Part shown: positions 1 through 16,780 of the stretch, in pieces
Layout: the number at the start of each line of letters is the position of its first letter
Numbering within the stretch: the first letter of the stretch is position 1
NCBI RefSeq assembly: GCF_003391115.1
Contig: NZ_QTJP01000001.1
Location: forward strand, 1,240,001-1,304,000
Source of the DNA: Sphingomonas crusticola
GTDB taxonomy: Bacteria > Pseudomonadota > Alphaproteobacteria > Sphingomonadales > Sphingomonadaceae
Direction of reading: 5' to 3'
DNA: 64,000 bases
Notes under the pieces: generated by a model
The model's input: the letters and a program-made list of their open reading frames with translations, nothing else
What the model was told of the DNA's origin: nothing
The model's database searches: none
Translations under genes and position numbers: made by a program

Positions 1-1380
1 GCCGTGCTTGACTGTGAAGCGGACATCTTCGGGCTGGAAGCCGGTGACCTTGCCCTCGCCGAACGCGCCGCCTTCGAGCCTGGTCGGCCCTTCGCCGTAG
101 ATGCGCCACGGCCGCGATCCGTGGATCGCCGCCCCGTTGATCGCCATCCAGGCGGTAATGCCGGCGACGATCTTCTCTTCTTCGCTGTCGATCGTTCCGT
201 TCCCGCGGACGGGGATCGACAGCAGCAAATTGCCGTTCTTGGAGACGACGTCGCACAGCCGCTGGATGACCTGGAGTGCCGGCACGTAGCTTTTGTCGAC
301 GAAGCGCTGGCGGTTATAATGCCAGTCGCCGATGCAGGTGCAGGTCTGCCACGGCTCCGCGCGCAGATGATCGCTATAGCCGCGCTCGATATCCTCCATC
401 AGCGCGCCACGCTGATCCTGGGTCAGCTTCTTGGCGGTGACGACAACGTCGACCTTGCCATGCCATTCGGTCGACTTGGCATAATAATGGGCGAGCGCCT
501 CCAGCCCGGCAGCGCCGAACGGCACGCCGGTATCGTCGAGATAAACCATGTCGGGCCTGTATTTCTCGACCAACTCCTGCTGGCGCGCGAGCCAGTTGGC
601 GACGAAGCGTGCCGGCGCGGGCGGCGCGGTTTCGATCCACTGGCCGTCATGCGCGTCATGCCAGGCATCCATCGCCTTGATCGACGTGATGCCGTCGGGA
701 GCCGCATACCAGGGACCGGTGTAGAGTTCCTGCGGGTCGAGGCCTTCCCACCATGTGCCCTTGCCGTCCGCCTTGGTCAGCTTGAACGCGTCGTAGCGCT
801 CGCCACGGCGCGGCCCCTCGGCGTCATAGCCATAGGCCACCTGCCACCAATGCCAGGCGTGCGAGCTATGATTGCTGACACCGAAGCGCAGCCCAGCCCT
901 GCGCACCGCCTTTTCCCAGGTGCCGATAATGTCGCGCTTCGGCCCTACACGCAGCGTATTCCAGGAATGGTGGCTGCTGTTCCAGGTGTCGAGATTGTCG
1001 TGGTGGCTGGCGATGGCCATGAAATATTTGGCGCCGGCTTTTTTATACAGCGCGATCAGCGCTTCCGGATCCCATGCCTCGGCCTTCCACGCTCCCTCGA
1101 TCTCTAGGAAGCCGCGGTCGGCCGGATGGCCGTAATGTTTGAGGTGATGGTCGTAAAAAGGATTGCCCTGGACGTACATCAGCCGCCCGTACCAATCGCC
1201 GGCCTCGGGAACGCATTGCGCGCTCCAATGCGCCCAGATGCCGAACTTGGCGTCGCGAAACCAGTCGGGCGGCGTGTAGGCACGTGTCAGCGACGCCCAG
1301 TCGGGTGCGATTGCAGCGGCGGCTCGCGTCGCCATCGCGGCAGCAGCGGCTGCCATGAGGCCGCGGCGGCCGACCTTCAT
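1..1380 (-). CDS. Alpha-L-fucosidase, GH29 (3' end outside window)
   Basis: Retaining exo-fucosidase that would release L-fucose from glycans, probably in the periplasm. The visible 460 residues begin with a short twin-arginine-like leader (GRRGLM followed by an alanine run), then the GH29 N-terminal landmarks WFRDAKFGIWAHW and KYFMAIASHHDNLDTW. The catalytic nucleophile aspartate should lie in DMVYLDDTG near residue 283. The gene runs off the left edge, so the stop and the C-terminal domain are not seen. Its ATG overlaps the stop of the fuconate dehydratase gene by four bases (ATGA, 1377-1380), so the two are translationally coupled. The neighbouring fucose catabolic genes support fucose as the released sugar. 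Confidence 0.88.
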   Translation of the reverse strand, partial: MKVGRRGLMAAAAAAMATRAAAAIAPDWASLTRAYTPPDWFRDAKFGIWAHWSAQCVPEAGDWYGRLMYVQGNPFYDHHLKHYGHPADRGFLEIEGAWKAEAWDPEALIALYKKAGAKYFMAIASHHDNLDTWNSSHHSWNTLRVGPKRDIIGTWEKAVRRAGLRFGVSNHSSHAWHWWQVAYGYDAEGPRRGERYDAFKLTKADGKGTWWEGLDPQELYTGPWYAAPDGITSIKAMDAWHDAHDGQWIETAPPAPARFVANWLARQQELVEKYRPDMVYLDDTGVPFGAAGLEALAHYYAKSTEWHGKVDVVVTAKKLTQDQRGALMEDIERGYSDHLRAEPWQTCTCIGDWHYNRQRFVDKSYVPALQVIQRLCDVVSKNGNLLLSIPVRGNGTIDSEEEKIVAGITAWMAINGAAIHGSRPWRIYGEGPTRLEGGAFGEGKVTGFQPEDVRFTVKHG

Positions 1381-2675
1381 GCCGCGGAGGCCGCGCGCTC
1401 GGGGCGATGGACGTAGCCGGCGAGCGTCGCCTGCTTCATCTCGATCGAGAAGCCGGGCGCGGTCGGCGGCCGGTAAGCGGCGTCAACGACCTCGCACGGG
1501 TCGACAAAATGTTCGTGGAGATGATCCACATATTCGGCAACGCGACCGTCCGTCGTGCCGGAGAAGCAGAGATAATCGATCATCGAGAGGTGCTGGACAT
1601 ATTCGCACAGGCCGACGCCGCCGGCATGCGGGCACACCGCCAGCTCGGCCTTGGCGGCCATCAGCAGCACCGTCAGCACCTCGTTGACCCCCCCCAAACG
1701 ACAGGCATCGAGCTGGACGATATCAATCGCGCCGCGACTGATGAATTGTTTGAACAGGATGCGATTCTGGCACATCTCGCCGCTTGCCACCTGGATCGGC
1801 GCCACCGCCTCGCGCACCGCGCGATGGCCTTCGACGTCATCAGGACTGGTCGGTTCCTCGATGAACCACGGGTCAGCGAACGCCAGAGCCTGGACGCGCG
1901 CAATGGCCTCCCCCGTCTCCCACACCTGATTGGCATCGATCATGACCTTGACGTCGGGACCGACCGCCTCGCGCACGATCTGGAGCCGGCGTCGATCATC
2001 CTCGGCATCCGCGCCAACCTTGATCTTCACATGGCGAAAACCCTGCGCGATTGCCTGCGCGCAGAGATCGCGCACCTTGTCATCGGAATAGCCCAGCCAA
2101 CCGGCCGACGTCGTATAGCAGGGATAGCCGCGCGCCTTGAGCGTCGCGATCCGTGCCTCCTTGCCGGCAGCGCGCACCTCCAGCAGCGCCACAGCCTCGT
2201 CACGCGTGATGAAATCGGTCATGTACCGAAAGTCGATCTGGGAGACGATCTCGCCAGGACTCATCTCACCGATATATTGCCACAGCGGCTTGCCCGCCTG
2301 CTTGGCAAGCAGGTCCCAAACGGCGTTCACGACCGCCCCGGTGGCTAGGTGAATCACGCCCTTTTCCGGACCGATCCAACGCAACTGACTATCTCCGGTA
2401 AGGTGCCGCCAGAAGCGCGCACCGTCAGCCCGGATCCACTCCAGCTCGAGCCCCTCCACCAGGGGCGCCAGCGCCCGAATAGCCGCGCAGCAGATATCGT
2501 TGCCGCGCCCGATGGTGAACGTAAGGCCATGGCCGGTCAGATCGGGCTGATCGGTGTCGAGGATGCAATAAGCCGCCGAATAATCCGGATCGGCGTTCAT
2601 CGCGTCCGATCCGTCGCGCGCCAGCGCGGTTGGGAAGCGCAAATCGAATATCCGAATGCCCGTTATTCTGGTCAT
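1377..2675 (-). CDS. fucD: L-fuconate dehydratase
   Basis: Enolase-superfamily enzyme converting L-fuconate to 2-keto-3-deoxy-L-fuconate (EC 4.2.1.68), cytosolic. The 432 residues match the family length. Visible landmarks are the N-terminal fuconate-type capping domain (RIFDLRFPTALARDGSDAMN), the KxK catalytic pair at K217/K219 (HVKIKVGAD), the metal ligands in VMIDANQVW and FIEEPTSPDD, and the HAGGVGLCEYVQHL segment carrying the second catalytic base. No strong ribosome-binding site is seen before the ATG, but no better in-frame start exists upstream. It is first in a pair with the GH29 gene and belongs to the same pathway as the plus-strand genes at 12694-16780. Confidence 0.92.
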   Translation of the reverse strand: MTRITGIRIFDLRFPTALARDGSDAMNADPDYSAAYCILDTDQPDLTGHGLTFTIGRGNDICCAAIRALAPLVEGLELEWIRADGARFWRHLTGDSQLRWIGPEKGVIHLATGAVVNAVWDLLAKQAGKPLWQYIGEMSPGEIVSQIDFRYMTDFITRDEAVALLEVRAAGKEARIATLKARGYPCYTTSAGWLGYSDDKVRDLCAQAIAQGFRHVKIKVGADAEDDRRRLQIVREAVGPDVKVMIDANQVWETGEAIARVQALAFADPWFIEEPTSPDDVEGHRAVREAVAPIQVASGEMCQNRILFKQFISRGAIDIVQLDACRLGGVNEVLTVLLMAAKAELAVCPHAGGVGLCEYVQHLSMIDYLCFSGTTDGRVAEYVDHLHEHFVDPCEVVDAAYRPPTAPGFSIEMKQATLAGYVHRPERAASAA

Positions 2676-2867: not shown

Positions 2868-3653
2868 TCAGATTCGGCTATCGCTGTCGATCAACTGATC
2901 GGAAATGGCGGCTGCTGAGGTCTGCACCTTGATCGCCGCTTCCTCTTGACTGACCTGCGGCCCAAGCTTCTCCAAAAAGGGCACCGTCAACGCGGCCGCA
3001 GCAACGCCGCCGCGCATAACCGGCGCCGAGATGTCGGTGACTCCCGCGACGAACCGGCTGGGCGTCAGCTCGACATGACGTTGGCGAATCTCGTCCGCAT
3101 GTACGCGCCAGTCGGCGAGTTCCTTATCGCTGAGCGGCGGCGACAGCATCTGCTCCCATCGCCGGCGAACATCCTCCGGCTGGAAAGCATAGAGCACGGC
3201 GCCCGATGCCGCCTTCACCAAAGGCCGACGATATCCCACCCGCACCGAAAAACCGAGCTGCTCGCTCGATTCCATCCGCGCGACCACCACCATCTCGCCG
3301 AGCGTATGCAGCGCGAGGTGGCAGGATTGCCCAACATCGAGCGCAAGCTGGCGCATCACGGGCAGCGCGACTTCGACCAAGCTGTGCGTCTTCGGGCGCT
3401 GCATGCCGAGGGAAAACAGCCGATCGGTGAGCAGATAGCCATCGGCGGAGGGATCCTGTTCAATATAGCCGCGGAATTCGAGCACCTGCACCATCCGGAA
3501 CAGTTCTCCATGGGAGCGGCCGAGTTGATTCACGATCGCTGTCAGCGTCATCGGCGCGGACGATGTCGCGAGCAGCTCAAGAATATCGAGCCCCTTTTCA
3601 AGCGCCGGTGCCTTGTAGCGGCGATCGTCGTCGAGGCTGGCCATGTCATTCAT
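2868..3653 (-). CDS. IclR-family transcriptional regulator
   Basis: DNA-binding regulator of 261 residues, likely sensing a fucose-pathway intermediate. An N-terminal winged helix (residues about 12-75, LEKGLDILELLATSSAPMTL onward) is followed by the IclR effector domain (about 90-250), with the typical motif GQSCHLALH and the segment AAALTVPFL near the end. It lies upstream of and in the same direction as fucD and the GH29 gene, separated from fucD by about 190 bases that hold an inverted repeat. Family assignment is firm; the ligand and targets are inferred from neighbours only. Confidence 0.88.
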   Translation of the reverse strand: MNDMASLDDDRRYKAPALEKGLDILELLATSSAPMTLTAIVNQLGRSHGELFRMVQVLEFRGYIEQDPSADGYLLTDRLFSLGMQRPKTHSLVEVALPVMRQLALDVGQSCHLALHTLGEMVVVARMESSEQLGFSVRVGYRRPLVKAASGAVLYAFQPEDVRRRWEQMLSPPLSDKELADWRVHADEIRQRHVELTPSRFVAGVTDISAPVMRGGVAAAALTVPFLEKLGPQVSQEEAAIKVQTSAAAISDQLIDSDSRI

Positions 3654-3723: not shown

Positions 3724-4353
3724 TCACCGTGGCACCTTGACGTTGAAACGGTGAACATCGCCCGCAAAGTTGATCGTGACGAGGACTTCGGGCGTCTTGG
3801 CACGTCGTAGTTTCTCGGTGATGACCTGTCCGCCATCCGCGGCGTTGGGCCGAATTGTGATTGGCTTCAACAGCACGGCGTCGAGTGCCGCGGCGTTGCT
3901 CGGCCGGCGCTGCGCCCGATCGATCGAGGACGCCGGCACGCCGCCCGTCACGCCGACCGAGCTTCCGGTGAAGCCCGAAACGTCGGTTTGACCAGTGCTG
4001 GTGATCGGCAGGGCGGCAGTCGTGTGCGCCTGGGCGGTTTCATCGCTGGCGATCGCGGTACCGGTCCGTTCCGTGACCAGGGCATCGCGCGTCATCAGTG
4101 CGATGGGCGTCTCGCCCGCCGTGACCGTCACGGCATCGGGACCGAAGGGCTGGGGTGCCCCGCTGAGGTTGAGGATTACGATCTTCAGCACCAGCCGCCG
4201 ATCGTTGAGCATGGGGTCGGCCACCAGATGGACCTCGCTCCTTGCGGTACGCGAGACGAGGCCGGCAGCCGCGTCGCCGCTAACAATCTCCTGTGCGGGC
4301 ATCGATGGCGCAGCAAGCGCGACCGCGGTGGCCAACACTAAGGTTCGGATCAT
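3724..4353 (-). CDS. Exported protein of unknown function in halogenase operon
   Basis: I do not recognise a named family. The start is set at the ATG at 4353 because GAGGAG sits six bases upstream and the product then begins with a clear signal peptide (MIRTLVLATAVALAAPSMPA, cleavage probably before QEI), leaving about 190 mature residues. The mature part is rich in Val, Thr and Ala with alternating hydrophobic strands (LVLKIVILNLSGAPQPFGPD), suggesting an Ig-like beta fold in the periplasm. It begins 13 bases after the second halogenase gene and is probably co-transcribed with both halogenases, so a role linked to them or to the receptor is plausible but unproven. Confidence 0.7.
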   Translation of the reverse strand: MIRTLVLATAVALAAPSMPAQEIVSGDAAAGLVSRTARSEVHLVADPMLNDRRLVLKIVILNLSGAPQPFGPDAVTVTAGETPIALMTRDALVTERTGTAIASDETAQAHTTAALPITSTGQTDVSGFTGSSVGVTGGVPASSIDRAQRRPSNAAALDAVLLKPITIRPNAADGGQVITEKLRRAKTPEVLVTINFAGDVHRFNVKVPR

Positions 4354-4366
4354 GGTTCGCTCCTCC

Positions 4367-5890
4367 TCAGGCAGCCCGCGCCTGGGCGGCGCGGCAATGG
4401 CGTTCGATGAAGGCGGCGTGGCCGGGCATACCATCGGCAGTGCGCGCGATGACGTTGCGCATGCCCGACAGGACCGCCTGCGTTTCGCGGGGATTCACGA
4501 TATCCGCGAGCGGATCATAGGTGTCGGGGCTGATGCCCTGCCCGAGCATCACGGCAAGCCAGCTCGCCTCGTGGAACAGGTCCTTCTCGCGCTCAATCAG
4601 GCGGCCGTTGAGCCGGAACATCTCCATCTTAGCCGCGAGCGTCGGGGGCGGCTGGATCGTCATGCAATGGCGCCAGAAATCCGAATCGTCGCGCTCGGTC
4701 GCCCGATAATGGAGCACCAGGAAGTCGCGTATGCTTTCGAATTCGCGCGCTATCTGGCGATTATATTCGGCGGTCACGGCAGGATCGAAATCCCGATCGG
4801 GGAACCAGGCAAGCAGCTTGGTGATGCCGCTCTGGACGAGATGGAGGCTGGTCGACTCCAGTGGCTCGAGAAAGCCCGACGACAGGCCGAGCGCGATGAC
4901 GTTGCGAGCCCAGCCCTGCGCGCGCATGCCGGTGGTGAAGCGCAGCTTGCGCGGCGCGCCGGTGGGGGCGCCTTCCAGCCCCGCCAGCAGAATGCGTTCC
5001 GCTTCGTCATCCGCCATGAAGGCGCTGGCATAGACGTGGCCATTGCCGGTGCGATGCTGGAGCGGGATGCGCCATTGCCAGCCTGCACTGCGCGCGGTGG
5101 CGCGAGTATAAGGCGGCAAATCCGCCAGCCTGGCGCTGGGGACGGCGATGGCGCGATCGCATGGGAGCCAACGCGTCCAATCCTGATAGCCCACCCGCAG
5201 TTTGTCGCCGATCAGCAATGCGCGAAAGCCGGTGCAATCGAGGAACAACTCACCCTCGATCCGCTGCCCGCTTTCCAGCGTGAGTGCCTCAACGAAGCCG
5301 GTCGCGGCGTTGAGCGCAACGTCGGCGATCTTGCCCTCGACGCGCGTCACGCCGCGCGCTTCGGAATGGGCACGCAGGAACGCCGCATAGAGACCCGCAT
5401 CGAAATGATAGGCATAGGAAAAAGTCGAGAAGACTGAGTGCGGATCGGCCGGCGGCCGATCGAACTTGTTCTTGTAGGCGGCAGCCTCGGTCAGCGAATA
5501 AGCCGACAGCGGTGCGGGGTCGCCGTGAGCGCGGGCGCGCAACCATTGCTGATGAAACGGCGTCATGCCGAAATCGTCGCCATAGCGGCCGAACGGATGG
5601 AAATAGCGGTGGCCCCGGCGATACCAGTCGACGAATTCGATACCGAGCTTGAACGTGCCCTGCGTAGCCTTGACGAATGCGGTCTCGTCGATGCCGAGCA
5701 CCTGATTGAAGGCCTGGATCGGCGGGATCGTCGCCTCCCCTACCCCGACGGTGCCGATCTCCTCCGACTCAATGAGCGTGATGCGGCACCTCGTGCCTTG
5801 CAGCGCTGTCGAGAGAGCCGCCGCGGCCATCCATCCCGCGCTGCCGCCACCGGCGACAACGATCGATCGCAGCGCCCTGGGGTTGCTCAT
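4367..5890 (-). CDS. Flavin-dependent tryptophan-halogenase-family protein (second copy)
   Basis: Family enzymes use FADH2, oxygen and halide to halogenate aromatic substrates. The 507 residues contain the FAD-binding GGGSAGW (residues 14-20), the halogenase signature W271-x-W273-x-I-P, the lysine expected to carry the halogenating species (K81 in TQGTFKLGI) and the partner glutamate E345 (EPLEST). All key positions of PrnA-type halogenases are therefore present and the length is normal. The start was placed at the ATG overlapping the upstream halogenase stop (ATGA, 5887-5890), although the reading frame is open further upstream. No flavin reductase is adjacent. The substrate is unknown; the locus suggests a glycan-linked or receptor-linked compound. 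Confidence 0.88.
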   Translation of the reverse strand: MSNPRALRSIVVAGGGSAGWMAAAALSTALQGTRCRITLIESEEIGTVGVGEATIPPIQAFNQVLGIDETAFVKATQGTFKLGIEFVDWYRRGHRYFHPFGRYGDDFGMTPFHQQWLRARAHGDPAPLSAYSLTEAAAYKNKFDRPPADPHSVFSTFSYAYHFDAGLYAAFLRAHSEARGVTRVEGKIADVALNAATGFVEALTLESGQRIEGELFLDCTGFRALLIGDKLRVGYQDWTRWLPCDRAIAVPSARLADLPPYTRATARSAGWQWRIPLQHRTGNGHVYASAFMADDEAERILLAGLEGAPTGAPRKLRFTTGMRAQGWARNVIALGLSSGFLEPLESTSLHLVQSGITKLLAWFPDRDFDPAVTAEYNRQIAREFESIRDFLVLHYRATERDDSDFWRHCMTIQPPPTLAAKMEMFRLNGRLIEREKDLFHEASWLAVMLGQGISPDTYDPLADIVNPRETQAVLSGMRNVIARTADGMPGHAAFIERHCRAAQARAA

Positions 5891-7404
5891 GCCGCCACCG
5901 GCGCCGGGCAGGCCCGATCGACAAAGACGGTATGGGGCGGGATCCGCTCCGCGACGCGCGCGATCGCCTCGCGACGTTGCGCCATGCCACCGCGCAGATG
6001 TTGGAGCGTGAGCTGATCGACGATCGGATCGTAGCGGCGCGGCAGAACCTTGTTGCCGAGGAAGATCGAGACCCAACTCGGCTCCTGATAGGATTCCTCC
6101 GAATAGAGCGGCACGCGGCCGCAGGCCTGCCAGATCGAAATCTTGTGGGAGAGTGTGTCGGGGATCGCCATCGTCCGGCAGTGCTGCCACATCGGTTCGG
6201 GCCGACGGCTGCGGCAATAATGGAGGATCAGGAAGTCGCGGATGCGCGCATATTCGTTCGCGGTAACACGGTTATATTCGCTCGCGATCACCGGATCGAA
6301 ATCCATGTCCGGCAGATATTCCACGAGCCGCGCAAGGCCGGTCTGGATCAGCTGGATACTGGTCGATTCCAGCGGCTCCATGAAGCCGGCCGCGAGGCCG
6401 AGCGCCACCACATTCTTGTACCAGAATTTCTCACGGTGGCCGGTGGTGAAGCGCAGCAGGCGCGGTTCGCCGAGCTGTGCCCCATCAAGGTTGGCGAGCA
6501 GCAGCGCCGTCGCCTCCTCATCCGAGGTGAAGGCGCTGGCGTAAACATGGCCATTGCCCGTGCGGTGCTGGAGCGGGATGCGCCATTGCCAGCCCGCGGG
6601 GCGCGCGATCGAGCGCGTGTAGGGCGTGAGCGGATCGCGGCGTGCGCTCGGCACAGCGATGGCACGGTCGCACGGCAGCAAGGCAGACCAATCCGCATAG
6701 CCAACGCCCAGCGCCTGGCCGATCAACAGGGCGACAAAGCCGGTGCAGTCGATGAACAAGTCACCCGCAATCCGCCTTTCGCCCTCCAGCCGGAGCGCGG
6801 CAACGCGGCCGGTTTCGGGATCGAGCTCGACATCCGCGATGCGGCCTTCCTGGCGGGTGACGCCCCTGGCTTCGGCATAAGTACGCAGGTAGCGCGCATA
6901 GAGGCCCGCATCAAAATGATAGGCATATTTGAAGAAGGCGGCCTCGCCGCTCTGCTGCTGGACCGCCTCGGGGGGCGCGAAACGGTCGCGGCGCGCGGCC
7001 GCATAGGGCATCGACCAATCCTCGATCGGCGCGGGATCGCCCAGCTGATGGAGCTTGAGCCAATGATGGTGGGGCGACACGCCCTGAATGGCCTCGCCAT
7101 AGTCACCGAAGCCGTTGAAATGAACGTTGCCGATCTCGCCCCAGTCGCAAAACTGGATGCCGAGCTTGAACGTCCCCTGCGTCGCCGTGACGAAATCCTT
7201 CTCGTCGATACCGAGCACGCCATTGAACTGGGCCATCAGCGGTACCGTTGCCTCGCCGACGCCGATGGTCCCGATCTCGTCGGATTCCACCAGCACGATT
7301 TGGGCGACGGGAGGGGGCAGGAAGCGTGCCAGCAAAGCGGCCGCCATCCACCCCGCAGTGCCGCCGCCGGCAATGACCACCTTACGGATCGGCGCTGCGG
7401 CCAT
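5887..7404 (-). CDS. Flavin-dependent tryptophan-halogenase-family protein (first copy)
   Basis: A 505-residue paralogue of the following gene. Visible are GGGTAGW (FAD, residues 13-19), K80 in TQGTFKLGI, W272-x-W274-x-I-P, and E346 in EPLEST; numbering of the lysine and glutamate is almost identical to PrnA (K79, E346), so an active halogenase is likely. It follows the TonB receptor gene by 102 bases that contain an intrinsic terminator, so it may be expressed at a lower level by read-through or from its own promoter. Related halogenases next to TonB receptors are known from Brevundimonas (BrvH) and Xanthomonas, with natural substrates not established to my knowledge. Confidence 0.9.
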   Translation of the reverse strand: MAAAPIRKVVIAGGGTAGWMAAALLARFLPPPVAQIVLVESDEIGTIGVGEATVPLMAQFNGVLGIDEKDFVTATQGTFKLGIQFCDWGEIGNVHFNGFGDYGEAIQGVSPHHHWLKLHQLGDPAPIEDWSMPYAAARRDRFAPPEAVQQQSGEAAFFKYAYHFDAGLYARYLRTYAEARGVTRQEGRIADVELDPETGRVAALRLEGERRIAGDLFIDCTGFVALLIGQALGVGYADWSALLPCDRAIAVPSARRDPLTPYTRSIARPAGWQWRIPLQHRTGNGHVYASAFTSDEEATALLLANLDGAQLGEPRLLRFTTGHREKFWYKNVVALGLAAGFMEPLESTSIQLIQTGLARLVEYLPDMDFDPVIASEYNRVTANEYARIRDFLILHYCRSRRPEPMWQHCRTMAIPDTLSHKISIWQACGRVPLYSEESYQEPSWVSIFLGNKVLPRRYDPIVDQLTLQHLRGGMAQRREAIARVAERIPPHTVFVDRACPAPVAA

Positions 7405-7456
7405 TCATCCCCCCAGGGCCTCCGCCCTGCCTTCCTTCATAGCGGCCAACCCCTTC

Positions 7457-7490
7457 AAAAAACAGGCGTCGCCGGATGCTTCGGGACGCC
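7457..7490 (-). terminator. Intrinsic terminator after TonB receptor gene
   Basis: On the minus strand a GGCGTC/GACGCC stem (7485-7490 with 7465-7470) continues as CCG/CGG with one bulged base, and is followed by TGTTTTTT. It lies 17 bases after the receptor stop codon and 53 bases before the halogenase start, so it should separate or attenuate receptor and halogenase expression. Confidence 0.7.
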
Positions 7491-7506
7491 CAGGGGAGGA
7501 AAGAAC

Positions 7507-10500
7507 CTAGAAGACGCCACGGATAAGGAACGCCACCTTCCGATCGGTGTCGGTCCAGCTGTAACGCGGCTTCAACTTGGGATCGCCGACATCAAGGAAG
7601 GTGCGCGCATTCAACAGGTTGGTTGCCTGCACGCCCACCTTGAGATGCTGGTTGAGCGAGTAAAGAATTGAGGCATCGAGCTGGCCGTATTTTTCCGACC
7701 AGACCGGGAAGTTGATGTTCGCCGCCGAGGTCGTCAGCAGGAAGTGCGAACGCCAATTATAGGCAAGCCGCGCCGAGATGCCGTATTTCTCGTAAATCGC
7801 GGCGACGTTATAGGATGTCCTGGACAGCCCCTCTAGCGGCAGGCTTACGCCGGCATTCGTAACCTGATTGGCGTCAAACACGTTGACGGCGGTATTCTTG
7901 CCGCCGCTGCTGTCGACGAACGTGAAATTGCCTTGGAAGCCGAGGCCTGAGAGCGGCCCCGGCAGCATGTCGAAGAACTGGGTATAGGCCAGTTCGAAGC
8001 CCTTGATCTTGCCGTGCGAGCCATTGGTCTGCTGGGTCACGTCGAACGTCAGCGTTTGGCCGTTGCTGGTGTAGGTCTGCTGCGATGTCCCGGCGAAAAT
8101 GTAATCGCTGATCGCCTTATAGAAGACGGCCAGTGTCAGGCTGTTCGATCGGGTCGCGCCGAAATACCATTCGAGGCTAGCATCGAACTGATTCGATCGG
8201 GTCGGCTTCAAATAGGGATTGCCCGCGGTGCCGGTAAAGGCCGTCGTCGCGCCGTTGACCCCCGTCCCGTTGGCGATGCCGGTCGTCGCATCGAACGAGA
8301 AGGACAAGTTGGTAAAGGCATTGAGCTGCGAGAAGGTCGGCCGCACGATCGCCTTGGCCGCCGCCAGGCGCAGGTAAAGATTGTCCTGCAGGAAGAAGCG
8401 CACGTTCAGGCTGGGCAGGACGTCCGTGTAGGAGCCCTTCGCAGTCTGCGTAAGGCCGCCGATATTGCCTCCCGAGAAGGCAATGGCCGAAGCCAACAAG
8501 GCGCAGTCCTGCGCCGTCACCAACTGCCCGGTGCGAGGTCCGCTGCCGATTACGGTGCCGACGGCGCAGTTCGGTGCAGTGAGCGTGCCCAGACGGATGG
8601 CGGAGCCATCGGCGGTCGTCTTGGTGCCGACGACCCGAACACCGATATTGCCGTCGAAGTGGCCGATCGGGCCATCTTCTTCGCCGAAGCGCAGCAAGGC
8701 ATAGGCTGCCTTGGTCTTTTCGGTCTGGTTGTTGATGCCGCCGCTGACATTATCGGCGGCAGGCGCGGCCAGCGAATAATCGTCGCTGAGCGGGACCCAA
8801 CCCCAGCCGCCGGACTCGGTATTCTTGAGATAATTATAGGCGTTCGCGGTGCCATGGCTGACGAGTGAGGCGCTCGGGAACCACCAGGATCCGCCGGATT
8901 GCACCTTGCCGCGGAAGAAATTCTTATACTTGAATAGATCGGACTGCGCCGGCAGGCCGGCATTCTGATGCGCGGCGTCGAAGCCGGTCTGGTTGAGATA
9001 GACCGGCGCTCCGGTCGCACCCCAATATTGTTCCGACAGCAACGCCCAATTGTAGCCGGTCTGGCGCGTGGTCGCGTTGCGATCGGTACCCCGCACACCC
9101 AGGCGGAACGACTTCAGGAAGCTGTCGTCGTCAAACGAATATTCGGCATCGCCGCGATAGGCCCATTCGTGCGCATCGTTGTCTTCGATATGGTCCATCG
9201 CTGAGGACCAATAATAATTGCTCTGCTGCGACCAGGCGGTCGAGCCGCCGGTGGGCGTGATTACCAGTTTGGGCTTGTTGCCGGACAGATCGAAGTCAAT
9301 CGTGGCCGTCGTCGGGGTCTGATCGTAGGCGGTCATGCTGACGACCTGCGCGCTCGACTTGATATACTGCACGTCGGCGCCGAATGCCCAGTGATCGGTC
9401 GGCGTCCAACGTACATTGCCGGAGAAATCGCGGGTCTTGTTGGTCTGCTGACCCGAGCGCGTGTCGGGATTGAGCTGGCGATTGTTGATCACGCCCGAGA
9501 CGAGCTCGTTATTGTCGCCAAAGACGTAAGTGGAATTGTCCGGCTCGGGCGATGCATAATCGCCCATCGCATGTTCGAGGTCGTGCGGCGTCGCCTTGCT
9601 GAGCAACGCTTCGCCGGTGATCACCAGATTGTCGGCCGGCTTCCACTGGATCGAGCCGTCGAAGGCCGTGCGGCGCTGCTGCCAGTCGATCTGGCGGAAG
9701 CCCAGGCTGTTGGGAATATAGACGTTGGTGCCAGTGGCGAGGCCATCCTGCGGCCGCCCGAGCGTCGCACGATCGAAACGCCCGTCCGAAATCTGATCGG
9801 TGCGGTTGCCGGTATTGCTGATGCTGTAGGATAGCAGAATGCCGATCTCGCCAAGGCCGGTCGACCAGCGGTTGCTGCCGAGCACGCTTCCCGACCAGAA
9901 TCCCTTCTTACGGAGATCGGCGTAGTTATAGTCGCCTGAGAAAGCGAGAACATGGCCGGGCGCATCGAACGGCTTGCGGGTGCGCAGATTGACGATGCCG
10001 CCAATCCCGCCCTCGATCAGTTCGGCCGAAGGGTTCTTGTAGACGTCGACGCCCGCGAGCAGGTCCGACGACACATCGCTGAAACTGAGCGCGCGGCCGT
10101 TATTGGCTGAGAATACGTCGCGGCCGTTCAATTCCGACCGCACGAACGACAGGCCGCGGATGAATACGCCGCCGCCTTCGGACGACAAGCGCGCGGGATC
10201 GCGATTGTCGTTGGTGCGCTGGAGCGTGACGCCCGCAATGCGCTGCAAGGCTTCGGCGACGGAACGGTCGGGCAAGGCGCCGATGTCCTGCGCGGTGATC
10301 GAGTCGATCACCTGCTCGGCGTTGCGTTTGCGCGCGGTCGCGCTCTGTACCGAGGCGCGGATGCCGGTGACGACGACCTCGCCTGCGGTGTCCGTGGATA
10401 GCGACTTGCCTTCGGTAGGCGCGGTCGCGACCAGCCCTGCTCCCCCGGTGGTTGCGCTGGTGGGTGTGCTGTCGGCCGCGGTTTGCGCTGCGGCCGGTGC

Positions 10501-10602
10501 CGCCAGCATCATCGCGAGCGTCGCGGTGGACACGCCGAACAGACGCGCCTTGGCTCTCGCGCGCCGACGAGCGCTAATCCAGCAGTCGGTATCACCCATC
10601 AT
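7507..10602 (-). CDS. TonB-dependent receptor, Xanthomonas/Caulobacter carbohydrate type
   Basis: Outer-membrane beta-barrel receptor of 1031 residues for TonB-driven uptake, here probably of a fucose-containing oligosaccharide. It has an N-terminal export signal ending in AAPAAAQ, a TonB-box-like segment (GEVVVTGIRAS), a plug domain with QDIGALPDRSVAEALQRIAGV and FIRGLSF, and a long barrel ending in aromatic VAFLIRGVF as expected for BAM recognition. Two ATG codons in tandem (10602 and 10599) follow GGGAGGG; the second has the better spacing. The size and plug wording fit the TonB-Xanth-Caul receptor group. The neighbouring esterases, halogenases and fucose genes give the likely ligand class; the ligand itself is inference. 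Confidence 0.9.
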   Translation of the reverse strand: MMGDTDCWISARRRARAKARLFGVSTATLAMMLAAPAAAQTAADSTPTSATTGGAGLVATAPTEGKSLSTDTAGEVVVTGIRASVQSATARKRNAEQVIDSITAQDIGALPDRSVAEALQRIAGVTLQRTNDNRDPARLSSEGGGVFIRGLSFVRSELNGRDVFSANNGRALSFSDVSSDLLAGVDVYKNPSAELIEGGIGGIVNLRTRKPFDAPGHVLAFSGDYNYADLRKKGFWSGSVLGSNRWSTGLGEIGILLSYSISNTGNRTDQISDGRFDRATLGRPQDGLATGTNVYIPNSLGFRQIDWQQRRTAFDGSIQWKPADNLVITGEALLSKATPHDLEHAMGDYASPEPDNSTYVFGDNNELVSGVINNRQLNPDTRSGQQTNKTRDFSGNVRWTPTDHWAFGADVQYIKSSAQVVSMTAYDQTPTTATIDFDLSGNKPKLVITPTGGSTAWSQQSNYYWSSAMDHIEDNDAHEWAYRGDAEYSFDDDSFLKSFRLGVRGTDRNATTRQTGYNWALLSEQYWGATGAPVYLNQTGFDAAHQNAGLPAQSDLFKYKNFFRGKVQSGGSWWFPSASLVSHGTANAYNYLKNTESGGWGWVPLSDDYSLAAPAADNVSGGINNQTEKTKAAYALLRFGEEDGPIGHFDGNIGVRVVGTKTTADGSAIRLGTLTAPNCAVGTVIGSGPRTGQLVTAQDCALLASAIAFSGGNIGGLTQTAKGSYTDVLPSLNVRFFLQDNLYLRLAAAKAIVRPTFSQLNAFTNLSFSFDATTGIANGTGVNGATTAFTGTAGNPYLKPTRSNQFDASLEWYFGATRSNSLTLAVFYKAISDYIFAGTSQQTYTSNGQTLTFDVTQQTNGSHGKIKGFELAYTQFFDMLPGPLSGLGFQGNFTFVDSSGGKNTAVNVFDANQVTNAGVSLPLEGLSRTSYNVAAIYEKYGISARLAYNWRSHFLLTTSAANINFPVWSEKYGQLDASILYSLNQHLKVGVQATNLLNARTFLDVGDPKLKPRYSWTDTDRKVAFLIRGVF

Positions 10603-10772: not shown

Positions 10773-11534
10773 TCAGTCGATCGCGCGCTGTAGCGCCGCC
10801 TCCACAACCGAAGCCATGCGCGCATAGCCATTGGCCAGCGGGTGCAGCCCATCCCGGGTAAGATCGCGCTGCAACAGCCCATCACGGTCGACCGTGACGC
10901 GATAATAATCCGCCAGAACATAACCGCGGCGGCGACAGAAGGCAGAGAGCCAGGCATTGAGTTCGCGGATGCGCTTCGGGTCGCGCTTAGCCAGCATATC
11001 GCTGGCGTTACCGCTATAATTATTGACGGGCAGGATCGCCCCGAACACGACCTTGATGCCATGGGCATCGGCCATGTCGGCCATGGCTTCCCAATTGGCT
11101 TCGATGCCGGCATCGCTCTCGCGCTGGAGCGCACCGTAAATATCGTTGATTCCCGCAAGGATGACGACAGCATTCGGCTGGAGCGCGATCACGTCCTGGT
11201 GAAAGCGCAGTACCAATTGAGCGGTTACCTGGCCGCCGATGCCGCGGTTGATATAAGGCTTGCCCGGAAAATAGCGGGACAGGTCCCACAGATCGGTGAT
11301 CGAGTCGCCGAGGAAGACGACTCGCTTCTCGCCCATGCGGGGCGGCGGCAGCGCCCGATCGGCGGCGGCATAGAGATAGGTCTCGCCGAAATCGCGGTGC
11401 ATGGCTGACCAAAGCTTGGTGAGATAATCGGCTTCCCAATGGTTGGTGGGGCGATCCTCGGCGAAGCTCTGCCGCTCGGGCGAGCTTTGATAATAAGCCG
11501 GAACCGCCGCGGCGGCGAGCAGCAGGGCAATCAT
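10773..11534 (-). CDS. SGNH/GDSL-family hydrolase, secreted
   Basis: Esterase-like hydrolase of 253 residues. SGNH blocks are present: block I VVFLGDSITDLW (nucleophile Ser), block II with the glycine in NRGIGGQ, block III AGINDIYG (Asn), and block V DGLHPLANGY (Asp and His). The start at 11534 gives a short hydrophobic leader (MIALLLAAAAVPA) and overlaps the stop of the upstream esterase gene as ATGA, so the pair is coupled. Such enzymes often remove acetyl or other acyl groups from plant or algal polysaccharides, which would suit this locus. The exact ester bond is not predictable from sequence alone. Confidence 0.85.
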   Translation of the reverse strand: MIALLLAAAAVPAYYQSSPERQSFAEDRPTNHWEADYLTKLWSAMHRDFGETYLYAAADRALPPPRMGEKRVVFLGDSITDLWDLSRYFPGKPYINRGIGGQVTAQLVLRFHQDVIALQPNAVVILAGINDIYGALQRESDAGIEANWEAMADMADAHGIKVVFGAILPVNNYSGNASDMLAKRDPKRIRELNAWLSAFCRRRGYVLADYYRVTVDRDGLLQRDLTRDGLHPLANGYARMASVVEAALQRAID

Positions 11535-12508
11535 ATAGCCGCCTCGGCAAACACCTTTTTGCGCGCGGCGAAGCGGGTGAACAATTGCGGCCATATGGCC
11601 GGCGTCGCGGCGGCGGGCAGGTGCGCGCCGAAGCCGTGGCCGGCTTCGTCAAACAGGTGCATTTCGGCGGAGCGATGTTGTTCGAGCAGGGCCTGGTAGA
11701 GTGCAATGCTGTTCGCTACCGGCACCAACCCGTCATCCGAGGCGTGCACCAGGAAGACGGGCGGGGTCGTGGCATCGACCCTCCGCTCGACGGAGCGATG
11801 GAGCCGGGCCTGTTCGGCCGCATTCGCCCCCAGCAGATTGTCGCGCGACCCGCCATGGGTGAACGGCGCGGACAGGCTGACCACCGGATAGATCAGCCCC
11901 GCCACATCGGGCCGCGCCGGCAGGTGATCCGCATCGTCGACGGCGGAATAAACCTGCTCGGTATGACGCGTAGCCAGCGATCCCGCGAGATGGCCGCCGG
12001 CCGAGAAGCCGAGCACAGCCACGCGAGCCGGATCGATTGCGAACCGGGCCGCATCGCGCCGGATGACGCGCATCGCGCGTTGCGCATCCTGCAAAGGCAC
12101 GTCCGCCCGGCCCGCCCAGCCTTCCGCCGGAAGCCGATAGGACAGGATGAAGGCGGTCACGCCGAGCGCGTTGAGCCAGCGCGCCTGGGCCGTGCCTTCG
12201 TTGTCGTAAGCGAGGAATTGGTAGCTCCCGCCGGGAATGACGAGGGCCGCCGAACCGTTCGGTTGCGCAGGACGATAGACCGCTAGCTCGGGCCGCGAAA
12301 TGCCGTAGATCCAGCGATCTGGATGCGCGGGATCGTGCGATTGATCTTCGATCCGGCGGGTGATCGCCGTGCCGATGTCGCCCGGCGGCTTGCCCGGCCA
12401 AAGTGCGATCCTTTCCTCAGCCATCGTCGCGTTCGCGCGGTGTGCTTGCACCCCTCCGAGCATCAGCGCCGAGCCCGCCCCCAGCAATGTTCTTCTCGAA
12501 AGCTCCAT
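11531..12508 (-). CDS. Alpha/beta hydrolase, acetyl(xylan)esterase-like
   Basis: A 325-residue serine hydrolase, first gene of the minus-strand block. It starts with a twin-arginine-type leader (SRRTLLGAGSALMLGG), followed by an alpha/beta hydrolase core with the oxyanion region VIPGGSYQFLAYDNEG, nucleophile elbow GFSAGG, and the acid and histidine in SDDGLVP and GHGFG. The WPGKPPGD start of the mature part is typical of secreted carbohydrate esterases of the BD-FAE/acetylxylan-esterase type. It probably deacylates the glycan before fucosidase action. The divergent fucP operon begins 185 bases away, so both likely share regulation. Confidence 0.86.
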   Translation of the reverse strand: MELSRRTLLGAGSALMLGGVQAHRANATMAEERIALWPGKPPGDIGTAITRRIEDQSHDPAHPDRWIYGISRPELAVYRPAQPNGSAALVIPGGSYQFLAYDNEGTAQARWLNALGVTAFILSYRLPAEGWAGRADVPLQDAQRAMRVIRRDAARFAIDPARVAVLGFSAGGHLAGSLATRHTEQVYSAVDDADHLPARPDVAGLIYPVVSLSAPFTHGGSRDNLLGANAAEQARLHRSVERRVDATTPPVFLVHASDDGLVPVANSIALYQALLEQHRSAEMHLFDEAGHGFGAHLPAAATPAIWPQLFTRFAARKKVFAEAAI

Positions 12509-12693: not shown

Positions 12694-13914
12694 ATGGCTG
12701 AACCGGGCAGTGTCGTGAGCCGACGTGCGCTCGTGCTGGTCACCGGCTTATTCTTACTCTGGGGGGTCGCCAACAATCTGAACGACGTGCTGATCGCGCA
12801 TTTCCGGCATGTCTTCATCCTTAGCGACTTTCAGTCCGGCCTGGTCCAGTCGGCCTTCTATCTCGGTTATTTTTGCTTCGCGGTGCCCGCCGCGCTGACG
12901 ATGGCGCGCTTCGGCTATAAGACGGCGGTGATCGCCGGCCTTGGCCTGTTCGCGGCCGGCGCAGCTTTGTTCTGGCCAGCAGCGCTCGCCTCCAGTTACC
13001 CGTTCTTCCTGTTCGCATTGTTCGTGATCGCGAGCGGCCTCGCCTTCCTCGAAACGGCGGCCAATCCGATGGTGGCAAGCCTCGGCCCGCCCGCGAGCGC
13101 GGAACGCAGGCTCAATTTCGCGCAGGCGTTCAATCCGCTCGGGTCGATCACCGGCGTCGCCTTGGGCGCATGGCTGATCCTGCCCGGGGCCGCTGTCGCG
13201 GACGGGGGAGGAGATCCCCTGCGCAACGTGCTGCTTCCCTACAGCCTGATCGTGGTGGTCGTGCTGCTATGGGCGGTCTTGCTGGCCTTCACCCCCTTCC
13301 CCGCCGTCGCAACCGAGGAGCGGCGACCGCATCCCTTATCCGAATATGCGGCATTGCTTCGGCGCCCCCGTTATCTCGCGGGGGTGTTCGGCCAGTTTGC
13401 CTATGTCGGCGCGCAAGTCGGCGTGTGGAGCTATCTCATCCGTTATGTCGAGGCGGCAGTGCCGGGGACCGGGCAACGCCAGGCGGCCTGGCTGCTGACG
13501 CTGTCGCTCGCCCTGTTCATGCTCGGCCGCTTCGTGGGTGCCGCCTTGTTGACGCGCGTGCGCGGCGCACCGCTGATGCTGGCGTTCGCGGCCGCCGATG
13601 TCCTTCTCTGCGTGGTAGCCGCATCCGCCGGCGGTGCGGTTGGCGTGGCGGCGCTGGTCGCGACCAGCCTGTTCATGTCGATCATGTATCCCACCATCTT
13701 CGTGCTGACGCTGCGCGACCTAGGCCCGCTGACCAAGAGCGGTGCGGCGATGGTGGTGATGGCGATCATCGGCGGGGCGGTGTTCACGGCATTGATGGGC
13801 CTGGTATCCGACCGGACCCATTCGATCGCATTCGCAATGCTGGTGCCAGCCGGTTGCTTCGTCGTGGTCGCCTTGTTCGCAGCGCTGCATCTGCGCGATG
13901 GCCGCCACGCTTGA
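12694..13914 (+). CDS. fucP: MFS sugar permease, FucP family (L-fucose:H+ symporter type)
   Basis: Inner-membrane proton symporter of 406 residues with about 12 hydrophobic segments. Family landmarks are the first helix LFLLWGVANNLNDVLIAHF, the YLGYFCFAVPAALTMARFGYK loop, and LETAANPMV with FAQAFNPLGS, all characteristic of FucP/glucose-galactose transporters. It leads a five-gene operon in which each of the next junctions overlaps by four bases, so imported fucose is delivered to the oxidation enzymes encoded just downstream. L-fucose is the likely substrate from context; related carriers also move galactose or glucose. Confidence 0.88.
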   Translation: MAEPGSVVSRRALVLVTGLFLLWGVANNLNDVLIAHFRHVFILSDFQSGLVQSAFYLGYFCFAVPAALTMARFGYKTAVIAGLGLFAAGAALFWPAALASSYPFFLFALFVIASGLAFLETAANPMVASLGPPASAERRLNFAQAFNPLGSITGVALGAWLILPGAAVADGGGDPLRNVLLPYSLIVVVVLLWAVLLAFTPFPAVATEERRPHPLSEYAALLRRPRYLAGVFGQFAYVGAQVGVWSYLIRYVEAAVPGTGQRQAAWLLTLSLALFMLGRFVGAALLTRVRGAPLMLAFAAADVLLCVVAASAGGAVGVAALVATSLFMSIMYPTIFVLTLRDLGPLTKSGAAMVVMAIIGGAVFTALMGLVSDRTHSIAFAMLVPAGCFVVVALFAALHLRDGRHA

Positions 13915-14726
13915 TCGACGCGCACGTCCATATCTGGCGGCTGGGCGGAAACGGCTGCACATGGCCACCGCGTGATCTGGCTGCGATTCATCGCGATCAT
14001 GATCTGCGCGAGGTGGAGCGTCTGATCGCGGGCACTGGCGTCGAAGGAATCGTGCTGGTGCAAAGCCAGGAAAGCGGGCTCGACACGGAATGGCTGCTGG
14101 CTGAGGCCGCCGACGCGCCGATCGTGGCAGGCGTGGTTGGGTGGATCGATCCGGCGGAGGAGGACGTGGCAAGGCGGGTCGCAGAGCTGGCGGAGTTGGG
14201 ACCGCTGGTTGGGCTGCGGGTGATGGCGCAGGATCGCGTGCCTGATTGGCTCGCGGCGCCGCAGCTCCATGGTCCGTGCGCCTGCCTGTCCGACCGAAAT
14301 CTCGCGCTCGATCTGCTGATCCGACCGCAGCATCTTGCCGCCAGCATCGCACTAGCCGCGCGCTTCCCGACGCTGCGGATCGTGATCGACCACGGCGCCA
14401 AGCCGCGCATCGCCGAGCAGGGCCTGGCGGCATGGCGCCAAGCGATGGCACCGGCCGCGGATCGTCCCAACCTGTTCTGCAAGCTTTCCGGGCTGGCCAC
14501 CGAGGCGCCGCCCGGCCGGCCGTTGGCGGAGCTGGCACCTTATGTCGCGACACTGCTCGACCTATTCGGGCCGGAGCGGCTGATCTGGGGGAGCGACTGG
14601 CCTGTGCTCAACCTGGCGAGCGATTATCGCGCCTGGCTCGATTTCGCCCGCAGCGCCATTCCCGAGGCGGACCGGGCAAAGGTGTTCGGGGGCACTGCCA
14701 GCCTCTGTTATCGGCTCGATCGATGA
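13911..14726 (+). CDS. L-fuconolactonase (amidohydrolase family)
   Basis: Metal-dependent lactone hydrolase opening L-fucono-lactone to L-fuconate. The 271 residues carry the amidohydrolase N-terminal IDAHVHIW, a central VIDHGAKP and the terminal GSDWPVLN typical of the COG3618/fuconolactonase group. The only sensible start is TTG at 13911, directly before IDAHVHIW and overlapping the fucP stop as TTGA; no ATG lies in frame near the domain start. Translation therefore probably depends on coupling to fucP. Function follows from family and from its place between the permease and the fucose dehydrogenase. Confidence 0.85.
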   Translation: MIDAHVHIWRLGGNGCTWPPRDLAAIHRDHDLREVERLIAGTGVEGIVLVQSQESGLDTEWLLAEAADAPIVAGVVGWIDPAEEDVARRVAELAELGPLVGLRVMAQDRVPDWLAAPQLHGPCACLSDRNLALDLLIRPQHLAASIALAARFPTLRIVIDHGAKPRIAEQGLAAWRQAMAPAADRPNLFCKLSGLATEAPPGRPLAELAPYVATLLDLFGPERLIWGSDWPVLNLASDYRAWLDFARSAIPEADRAKVFGGTASLCYRLDR

Positions 14727-15691
14727 GCGGACTGGTCCTGCCGCGGCTGGGCGTTGGTACCGCCGCGATCGGCAATCTCTATGCGGCCGTCTCCGACGAG
14801 GTGGCGCACGCCACGATCCGGGCCGCTCTCGATGTCGGTATCACCTACTTCGATACCGCGCCTTATTATGGCTTCGGGCTGGCCGAGCGACGGCTGGGTG
14901 CGGCCTTGGGCGATGCGCAGGTGGTGATTTCGACCAAGGTCGGTCGCCTGCTCGAACCGACCAGGGCGAGGGGTTCGCGCCATGGCTACGTCGATGCCGA
15001 CCCCTACGAGCCGCGCTTCGATTACAGTGGCGATGGCATTCGACGATCCTACGAGACCAGCCTTGCCCGGCTGCGCCGCGACCGCGTCAATATCCTGCTG
15101 GCGCACGATCTCGGGCGGCTGACGCATGGTGCCGATCATGCACGCCAGCTGCGTGACTTCCTCGACAGCGGTTATCGCGCGATGCGCGATCTCAAGGACA
15201 CTGGCGCGATCGACGCGGTCGGCATCGGAGTTAACGAGGTGGCGGTCTGCCTCGAGCTGATGACCGAAGTCGATCTAGACGTCATCCTGCTTGCCGGCCG
15301 CTACAGCCTACTCGACCGCAGCGCGGCAGACGTGCTGATCCCCGAATGCGTGCAGCGCGGGATCCGCCTGATCATCGGCGGGCCTTATAATAGCGGTATT
15401 TTGGCGCAGGACGATTTGAGCGGCGCGAGCCCGCTCCGCTTTGATTATGCCTGGGCTCCCGATCGCCTAGTCGCGCAGGCGCGTACCCTGTCGGCAACCT
15501 GCGCCAGCTTCGGAGTGAACCTGTCCGCCGCGGCGCTGCAATTTCCGATGCAGCATCCCGGTGTTGCGACAGTGATTGCGGGCGTGGCGGGGATCGATCA
15601 GGTGCGGGATCTTATCGAGCGCGCGCAGACCCCGGTTCCGGCCGAGCTGTGGGATGCACTCGCCGAGCTACCGATGGAGACGATATTATGA
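14723..15691 (+). CDS. Aldo/keto reductase, L-fucose (D-threo-aldose) dehydrogenase type
   Basis: NAD(P)-dependent oxidation of L-fucose to its lactone, first catabolic step. The 322 residues begin LPRLGVGTAAIGN and show the AKR catalytic aspartate and tyrosine (ITYFDTAPYYGFG), lysine (VVISTKVGR), and a HDLGR segment in place of the usual histidine motif, as in galactose/fucose dehydrogenases. The C-terminal IAGVAGIDQVRD forms the cofactor loop. The start at 14723 overlaps the lactonase stop as ATGA. Assignment to fucose rather than another aldose rests on the operon. Confidence 0.85.
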   Translation: MSGLVLPRLGVGTAAIGNLYAAVSDEVAHATIRAALDVGITYFDTAPYYGFGLAERRLGAALGDAQVVISTKVGRLLEPTRARGSRHGYVDADPYEPRFDYSGDGIRRSYETSLARLRRDRVNILLAHDLGRLTHGADHARQLRDFLDSGYRAMRDLKDTGAIDAVGIGVNEVAVCLELMTEVDLDVILLAGRYSLLDRSAADVLIPECVQRGIRLIIGGPYNSGILAQDDLSGASPLRFDYAWAPDRLVAQARTLSATCASFGVNLSAAALQFPMQHPGVATVIAGVAGIDQVRDLIERAQTPVPAELWDALAELPMETIL

Positions 15692-16420: not shown

Positions 16421-16780
16421 GTGGTCACGCAGCGCCACGTTCTGCTGATCGATTTGGCCGACGACGCAGCTGCAATAGCGCGCTACGAAGCCTGGCACGC
16501 CGCAGGCGTAGTGCCGCCCAAGATTACCGGCTCGATCCGCGCCGCCGGCATCGTCGCGATGGACATTTACCGTAGCGGCAACCGGCTGGTGATGGTGATG
16601 GAGACCGAGGCCGGCTTCGATGCTGCGCGCAAGGCAGCGACTGATGCGGCCGACCCCGCCGTGGTCGCGTGGGAACGCTGGATGGACGAGGTGCAACGGC
16701 CACTGCCGTGGGCTGCTGCCGGCGCCAAGTGGACCGAAGCCGCGCGTATCTTCTCGCTGGAGGAGCAAACACCGGTCTAG
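16421..16780 (+). CDS. L-rhamnose/L-fucose mutarotase (DUF718 family)
   Basis: Small cytosolic mutarotase of 119 residues interconverting anomers of the imported sugar so that the dehydrogenase gets its preferred form. The protein resembles the L-rhamnose mutarotase family: a ferredoxin-like single domain with an RYEAWHAAGVVPP helix, IVAMDIYRSGNRLVMVME strand and a C-terminal WERWMDEVQ. Last gene of the fucose operon, starting with GTG two bases after the SDR stop. Fucose specificity is inferred from the operon. Confidence 0.8.
   Translation: MVTQRHVLLIDLADDAAAIARYEAWHAAGVVPPKITGSIRAAGIVAMDIYRSGNRLVMVMETEAGFDAARKAATDAADPAVVAWERWMDEVQRPLPWAAAGAKWTEAARIFSLEEQTPV

Follow-up and report, generated by a model that had tools for sequence, protein, structure and literature searches.

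The 64,000-nucleotide window analysed here (Sphingomonas crusticola, RefSeq assembly GCF_003391115.1, contig NZ_QTJP01000001.1, positions 1,240,001 to 1,304,000 of the forward strand) carries two flavin-dependent halogenase genes, hal1 and hal2, directly behind the gene for a TonB-dependent receptor, and this coupling of receptor and halogenase recurs across genera. On the minus strand the gene order is receptor, hal2, hal1 and then a gene for a small exported protein of 209 amino acids (aa), all inside an L-fucose utilization locus. Our reading, to which we assign a probability of roughly 0.6, is that the locus serves the uptake of a fucosylated plant glycan and that its two halogenases, of the BrvH/Xcc4156 type, are tied to its receptor.

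The genome from which the window comes holds 13 halogenase genes (family PF04820) in eight clusters, and a TonB receptor adjoins six of these clusters, which comprise 11 of the 13 genes, two degenerate ones included. If 3100 genes and 63 receptors are roughly assumed, the chance that at least six of eight clusters fall within three genes of a receptor is ∼5.5e-5. The related genome G155 (handles beginning with G or L are our own) has 9 of its 10 halogenase genes within about 2.5 kb of a receptor. Among 80 database loci, the top-scoring hits for the query rather than a random sample, a receptor was found within 2.5 kb of the halogenase in 51 with a first receptor profile and in 65 with a wider search at the same limit. 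By name, these 65 loci come from 33 Alpha-, 12 Beta- and 11 Gammaproteobacteria and one Terriglobia metagenome-assembled genome, with eight lacking a class. Searches that used the receptor alone, with at most two candidates scored per genome, placed a halogenase within 1.5 kb of all nine non-self homologues, in eight genomes (3 of 3 in 397 genomes of the family at E up to 1e-180; 6 of 6 in 385 genomes of the class at E up to 1e-100). G000 and G155 together contributed 33 TIGR01782-family receptor loci (two scoring under the curated cut-off); a halogenase lies within 1.5 kb in 8 of them and somewhat further away in 2 more.

The receptors and halogenases also share a history. On a tree of 40 receptors, all 14 rows of the window receptor's clade have a halogenase neighbour (Shimodaira-Hasegawa-like approximate likelihood ratio test value 98); the outermost row of the clade is the receptor of L174, 40% identical to the window's. 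The halogenase label required 4 changes on this tree, compared with a shuffled mean of 13.3 (0 of 500 shuffles as low), and still 4 when only the 32 rows from G000 and G155 were used, the other 8 rows having been chosen through similarity to the window receptor. Distances within 83 receptor-halogenase pairs were weakly correlated (r 0.32; highest of 2000 permutations, 0.173), and for the G000 and G155 pairs r reached 0.745 (0 of 5000 within-genome shuffles as high). The halogenase tree sorts by receptor type: its 79 rows, drawn from the 83 pairs with some receptors sharing one halogenase, required 13 changes, and shuffling gave a mean of 43.9, with none of 200 shuffles as low. The pairs are thus inherited together, and the halogenases are probably accessory enzymes of a receptor type rather than of a sugar.

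A comparison of neighbouring genes, in which a locus entered only once for each receptor type and the window was excluded, found a gene of glycoside hydrolase (GH) family 13 in 21 of 24 loci with L141-like receptors and halogenases, compared with 3 of 54 loci of other receptor types. These L141-like loci (L039, L041, L043 and 21 more) form a second large receptor-halogenase group, for alpha-glucans. One alpha-galactosidase/GH68 locus also carries a halogenase of the same group.

By their sequences, hal1 and hal2 belong to the BrvH/Xcc4156 group. Each covers the PF04820 profile almost end to end and keeps GxGxxG, WQWRIP and the catalytic pair (Lys81 and Glu345 in hal1, Lys80 and Glu346 in hal2); the two are 53% identical to each other. 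The closest solved structures for both are 6frl, 6y1w and 9luq, of which we take the first two to be the BrvH and Xcc4156 structures. Matches to 6frl had E-values of 2e-156 and 1.7e-143, compared with 1.2e-88 and 1.8e-82 for the best-scoring entry named as a tryptophan 5- or 6-halogenase, and entries named as tryptophan 5-, 6- or 7-halogenases were much more distant than the three closest. Both proteins align without gaps to 6frl across the short-loop region, the position of the substrate lid, and both have the motif ESTS, with no Gly, at the second halide position. Of 173 aligned halogenase rows (the hal1 reference counted), 153 retain GxGxxG, Lys and Glu together, and 132 of these 153 intact rows have ESTS.

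Published work, cited here by PMC number from partial texts, bears on what such enzymes can do. In BrvH a short loop replaces the substrate lid of RebH, and its open pocket has been compared to that of MibH, which acts on tryptophan within a peptide (PMC5945002). At the second halide position BrvH has Ser; Gly is usual there in such enzymes, and Xcc4156 has Asn (PMC7336383). Both BrvH and Xcc4156 are characterised halogenating relatives (PMC5945002, PMC7336383), and halogenation is quite probably also the reaction of hal1 and hal2 in the cell. A role in defence against phages was considered and dropped, as hal1, hal2 and the 209-aa protein had no match in PADLOC.

The genes of the locus are listed in the table below. 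Coordinates are window positions, and signal peptides as well as the labels aldo/keto reductase, short-chain dehydrogenase, KduI, GH43, GH51, GH97 and the GH3 of L112 were assigned by eye; the remaining GH labels in loci come from BLAST against profile-checked members. Roles in the L-fucose pathway follow general knowledge.

Table. Genes of the receptor-halogenase run and the surrounding fucose locus
Feature	Window position	Strand	Basis
TonB-dependent receptor, 1031 aa, TIGR01782 (TonB-Xanth-Caul) type	7507..10602	-	TIGR01782 E 9.2e-198
hal2, PF04820 flavin-dependent halogenase, 505 aa, BrvH/Xcc4156-like, motifs intact	5887..7404	-	PF04820 E 2.7e-177
hal1, PF04820 flavin-dependent halogenase, 507 aa, BrvH/Xcc4156-like, motifs intact	4367..5890	-	PF04820 E 2.5e-190
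Small exported protein, 209 aa, predicted beta-sandwich, without family match	3724..4353	-	signal peptide by eye
IclR-type regulator	2868..3653	-	homologues in related loci G155 (71%), G091 (69%), L033 (52%)
Enolase-superfamily sugar-acid dehydratase, probably L-fuconate dehydratase	1377..2675	-	78% in G155, 70% in G091; role inferred
GH29 alpha-L-fucosidase, cut by window edge (533 aa in genome)	1..1380	-	PF01120 E 2.8e-81
GDSL esterase	10773..11594	-	homologues in related loci L032, L034, L170, L171
Alpha/beta hydrolase (BD-FAE; PaeX-like below curated cut-off), probably glycan acetylesterase	11531..12508	-	homologues L032, L034
FucP L-fucose:H+ symporter	12694..13914	+	TIGR00885 356.1 bits vs curated cut-off 280.4
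Amidohydrolase, probably fuconolactonase	13911..14726	+	PF04909; TTG start candidate 13911; role from pathway knowledge
Aldo/keto reductase, probably L-fucose dehydrogenase	14723..15691	+	family by eye; ATG at 14723; homologues G155, L033
Short-chain dehydrogenase, probably fuconate branch	15649..16419	+	family by eye; start uncertain; 59% homologue in L174

An earlier note on this DNA had described a run of a TonB receptor, two complete halogenases, an exported protein and fucose genes; open reading frames (ORFs) and profile matches confirm that run, and the note was right about the catalytic residues and the WxWxIP motif. It had also seen no biosynthetic cluster, in agreement with our ORF reading and profile scans of window positions 1-22000, which recognised no nonribosomal peptide synthetase, polyketide synthase or other biosynthetic genes around the halogenases (no cluster program was run). 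The fucose locus it had named stands, and its gene list needs one addition, the GH29 fucosidase at the left edge, which it had overlooked. This minus-strand gene starts at window position 1380, shares four bases with the fuconate dehydratase gene and exits the left edge; it is the sole PF01120 match in the whole genome. The reading frames of hal1 and hal2 also share four bases (ATGA), and GGAGGA lies seven bases upstream of the ATG of the 209-aa protein. Beyond the fucose genes, positions 16669-20220 of the plus strand hold a single 1183-aa ORF in which glycoside-hydrolase-like, polysaccharide-deacetylase-like and glycosyltransferase-2-like parts appear, by eye, to be fused.

The co-occurrence that the earlier note proposed to check holds, and widely, for receptor and halogenases, and the scattering of halogenases independently of receptors that it saw as the contrary outcome was not what we found. 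The third partner fared otherwise: the 209-residue protein, which the note had included in its proposed co-occurrence search, is absent from all 80 best-match loci (BLAST E 1e-6). It has matches in 7 of 298 genomes of the family (its own included), lies right behind a halogenase only in its own genome and in G155, and lies near one in G227 (L029). Its model (mean predicted local distance difference test score, pLDDT, 68) had no convincing neighbour in the PDB. With 0 of 80 loci and 7 of 298 genomes, we rejected it as a core part of the halogenase unit; it is a patchy accessory.

The probable ligand was judged from 15 related loci (G155, L032, L033, L034, L042, L056, L061, L079, L111, L162, L163, L170, L171, L174 and L179), which were assembled from several searches and are not a sample. 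GH31 and GH35 occur together in 9 of them, GH29 in 6 and GH74 in 2; among the others, L042 has GH31 and GH29, L163 has GH35, L032 and L034 have GH3 and esterases, and L162 and L056 have none of the enzymes sought. In G155, whose receptor, hal2, hal1 and small protein are 71%, 69%, 66% and 37% identical to those of the window, the run is flanked on one side by GH3-like, GH35, GH31 and esterase genes and on the other by GH74, dehydratase, IclR and FucP genes. A single stretch of G091 carries GH31, GH35, GH74, IclR, receptor, halogenase, GH29, FucP and dehydratase genes, and an annotated plasmid of Novosphingobium capsulatum has, in turn, an esterase, a LacI regulator, a receptor, two halogenases, a GH31-type enzyme, an alpha-L-fucosidase and a GH35-type enzyme. 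Elsewhere, the window's own genome has a GH31 of the same type (67% identical to that of L042 and 66.5% to that of L179) and two GH35-DUF5597 genes. No match to PF14498, a proxy for GH95 fucosidases, was found in G000, G155 or G227. Because the related loci hold the GH31, GH35, GH74 and GH29 set and the genome keeps GH31 and GH35 elsewhere, the gene content suggests that the ligand is probably xyloglucan, as fucosylated oligosaccharides. Of the marks of a xyloglucan locus, the window locus has a TonB receptor together with an alpha-fucosidase and fucose uptake.

We propose that the receptor would import a fucosylated (acetylated) xyloglucan oligosaccharide, that the esterases and the GH29 fucosidase would trim it, and that L-fucose would be taken up by FucP and broken down by the dehydrogenase-lactonase-dehydratase set. 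The halogenases would be co-transcribed with the receptor in an apparent operon. Their putative substrate, suggested tentatively and by analogy, is an aromatic residue (tryptophan being the first candidate) in some protein or peptide belonging to the uptake system, which would be halogenated in the cytoplasm before export; we entertain such a substrate because it fits the open pocket, the position of the genes in one run with the receptor gene and the way the halogenases sort by receptor type. The narrower version of this proposal, in which the enzymes would be maturases that halogenate tryptophans in the receptor itself or in a partner protein ahead of export, with W519, W527 and W950 of the receptor as candidate sites, is unlikely.

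These three tryptophans stood out in the receptor alignment. At 85% conservation, 38 of 154 conserved columns were specific to the clade, including all three conserved tryptophans (a simple count puts the chance at ∼0.014); when the clade was aligned by itself, five tryptophan columns were conserved at 80%. Each of W519, W527 and W950 is present in 39-40 of the 40 rows of the clade, whereas among 22 receptors lacking a halogenase only 2-5 have it. Tryptophan content was 1.59% in the clade and 1.16% in receptors without a halogenase (p 0.0008), and that of L141-like receptors (1.17%) did not differ from the latter. In the receptor model (mean pLDDT 62.6, with the stretch around W519 and W527 below 50), a reading of the topology would place all three at the outer face of the barrel. 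Sugar binding is a simpler reason for their conservation.

A number of observations weigh against our overall reading. Two of the eight halogenase clusters in the window's own genome are solitary, and 15 of the 80 best-match loci have no receptor ORF within 2.5 kb; in 6 of these 15 the available sequence ends less than 1.2 kb upstream of the halogenase gene, with a receptor fragment visible in 3 of the 6. Agreement of the receptor and halogenase trees, like the sorting by receptor type, could come from linkage alone. L180 has a halogenase of 59% identity whose receptor is quite different (26% over 249 residues at best), which makes a single receptor-specific target residue unlikely. The tryptophan signature is not kept in the L141-like halogenase receptors, and its independent-pairs test on the tree, which offers too few such pairs (two, on starred branches), was not significant; we keep it only as a lead. 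BrvH brominates free indole, slowly, and this weak activity led its authors to doubt that indole is the natural substrate (PMC5945002). As for the glycan, GH31 and GH35 are absent from the window's locus, and GH74 had no match in the genome (single query, without positive control, other endo-glucanase families not searched). With this incomplete gene content we do not file the window locus as a full xyloglucan locus, and another fucosylated plant glycan, such as pectin or arabinogalactan, becomes possible. A further TIGR01782 receptor with esterase-like and KduI-like genes lies in the same genome within 20 kb to the left of the window start (L020); by eye this locus is of the pectin type, and it contains no PF04820 match.

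That the glycan is instead rhamnogalacturonan or arabinogalactan is a minority view in our judgement, and the halogenase question would be the same. Besides the missing GH74 match, the PaeX-like and GDSL esterases at the locus, the nearby pectin-type locus and L029, a fucosidase-bearing halogenase locus (GH29 matched) with arabinosidase-like genes (by eye), are in its favour, whereas the nearest relatives of the receptor lie with GH31, GH35, GH74 and GH29, and kin of the GH31 and GH35 enzymes are still in the genome. The earlier note had suggested a role in nutrient capture, in which the enzymes would modify aromatic groups borne by the polysaccharide, such as feruloyl esters. The halogenases do accompany glycan-capture genes, and their link to receptors is real and wide; the part about the polysaccharide is disfavoured. 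A BD-FAE-type esterase in the locus speaks for it, but halogenases of the same group occur at GH13 loci (21 of 24), at xyloglucan-type loci and at the alpha-galactosidase/GH68 locus. Alpha-glucans, xyloglucan and the glycan of the latter locus have no aromatic groups, so an aromatic substrate on the glycan is unlikely; moreover, FADH2-dependent enzymes without a signal peptide (by eye) should work in the cytoplasm, away from the polymer. We consider this role highly improbable.

A further possibility is that the substrate is a small aromatic metabolite, be it indole, some phenolic or a signal made by the cell. Its halogenated form would serve for defence or signalling and be released during feeding, and a separate copy in each glycan locus would ensure its production whenever the glycan in question is consumed. 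The bromination of free indole by BrvH (PMC5945002), the many halogenase copies in loci with different regulators and the similar halogenases behind unrelated receptors agree with this, and in work on sponge microbiomes tandem BrvH-like genes are considered candidates for producing halogenated compounds (PMC7313196). The low activity on indole and its authors' doubt argue against it (PMC5945002), as does the lack of recognised biosynthetic or export genes in the loci read; interchangeable copies also would not need to sort by receptor type, although linkage alone could cause the sorting. Taken by itself this is a possibility short of an even chance, and we regard a small-molecule product and a protein substrate as equally likely. 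Lastly, the halogenase fold may have been kept for other flavin chemistry, for example the hydroxylation of peptidyl tryptophan carried out by the QhpG and LodB maturases. Weak NCBIfam matches to QhpG (hal2) and LodB (hal1), far below their cut-offs, and Cupin_8 (JmjC-like) genes at several halogenase loci point in that direction, but GxGxxG, Lys and Glu are kept in the 153 of 173 rows and BrvH and Xcc4156 do halogenate (PMC5945002, PMC7336383), so that such chemistry is unlikely.

The remaining 20 of the 173 halogenase rows fail the motif test, having lost the FAD motif, the Lys and/or the Glu; 3 of them look cut by contig ends, and 16 of the 20 occupy the second position in a cassette of several halogenases. 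Degenerate halogenases are kept as long ORFs in L014 (9243-10748; the window's own genome), L013 (7998-9512) and L152 (7904-9427), and further such cassettes include L036, L040, L053, L063, L067, L083, L095, L102 and L107. Conserved pseudo-enzymes next to active copies suggest heteromers or a binding role. Also in the window's own genome, L019 (8097-9650) and L018 (8005-9516) are halogenase genes without an adjoining receptor. The L019 halogenase belongs to another subgroup, with the halide motif ESTG and WTWDIG in place of WxWxIP; the L018 halogenase, with a receptor 2.4 kb off and genes between, was counted as solitary in the tally for this genome and is among the 83 pairs. Cupin_8 and/or SapC genes adjoin receptor-halogenase pairs in L013, L014, L016, L028, L149 and L152, and neither occurs in the window's gene run.

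BrvH-type halogenases have been characterised as biocatalysts, and their link to defined receptor clades shows where a natural substrate may be sought. A likely inducer, xyloglucan, together with the contrasting alpha-glucan group, makes a common and unexplained gene pairing testable. Should the target prove to be a receptor or one of its partner proteins, bacterial nutrient uptake would involve halogenated residues. A published lead comes from a freshwater Sphingomonas, in which transposon mutants were screened for colony morphology and one insertion fell in a gene named tryptophan halogenase (PMC11340318). In the wheat rhizosphere, "tryptophan 7-halogenase" (K14266, 2.4 million reads) was filed under secondary metabolism, with xyloglucan-degrading genes separately abundant (PMC12145609); if many of these reads are of the receptor-linked kind, they would report glycan uptake instead. 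None of the titles or abstract beginnings that came up in our searches of open-licence papers treats the receptor-halogenase link, a scope that excludes supplements and subscription papers, so the link, which the earlier note calls known in a few genera, may be in print; nor is it treated in the partial texts cited elsewhere in this account or in those of PMC8269204, PMC7142613, PMC9775415, PMC11337851, PMC7333567 and PMC10110911.

Compared with known systems, the window's enzymes are closest to BrvH of Brevundimonas BAL3 and Xcc4156 of Xanthomonas campestris, their best solved relatives, and share with BrvH the short substrate loop, the Ser in the second halide position and the tandem arrangement, a further halogenase gene lying beside brvH. 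They differ in the run with a receptor and in the fucose locus seen here; the words TonB and SapC are absent from PMC5945002, and TonB from PMC7336383. Peptide tryptophan halogenases of the MibH type, among which SrpI is also placed, differ in that no precursor or cluster for a ribosomally synthesized and post-translationally modified peptide was recognised at the window's locus. What they share, judged from the BrvH structure, is the open pocket (PMC5945002). The xyloglucan loci of Xanthomonas citri (PMC8245568) and Cellvibrio japonicus (PMC4285296) resemble several of our related loci in having a TonB receptor, an alpha-fucosidase, GH31 and GH35, with acetylesterase-type genes in some and GH74 in G155 and G091. 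In contrast, the fucosidase here is of GH29 and not GH95, halogenase genes are added (the word halogenase is absent from both papers), and the window locus itself has GH29 without GH31, GH35 or GH74. Although the word halogenase is likewise absent from the text on the carbohydrate utilization (CUT) loci of Xanthomonas and aquatic bacteria (PMC1790865), those loci combine, as here, a receptor with an inner-membrane transporter, a regulator and degradative enzymes.

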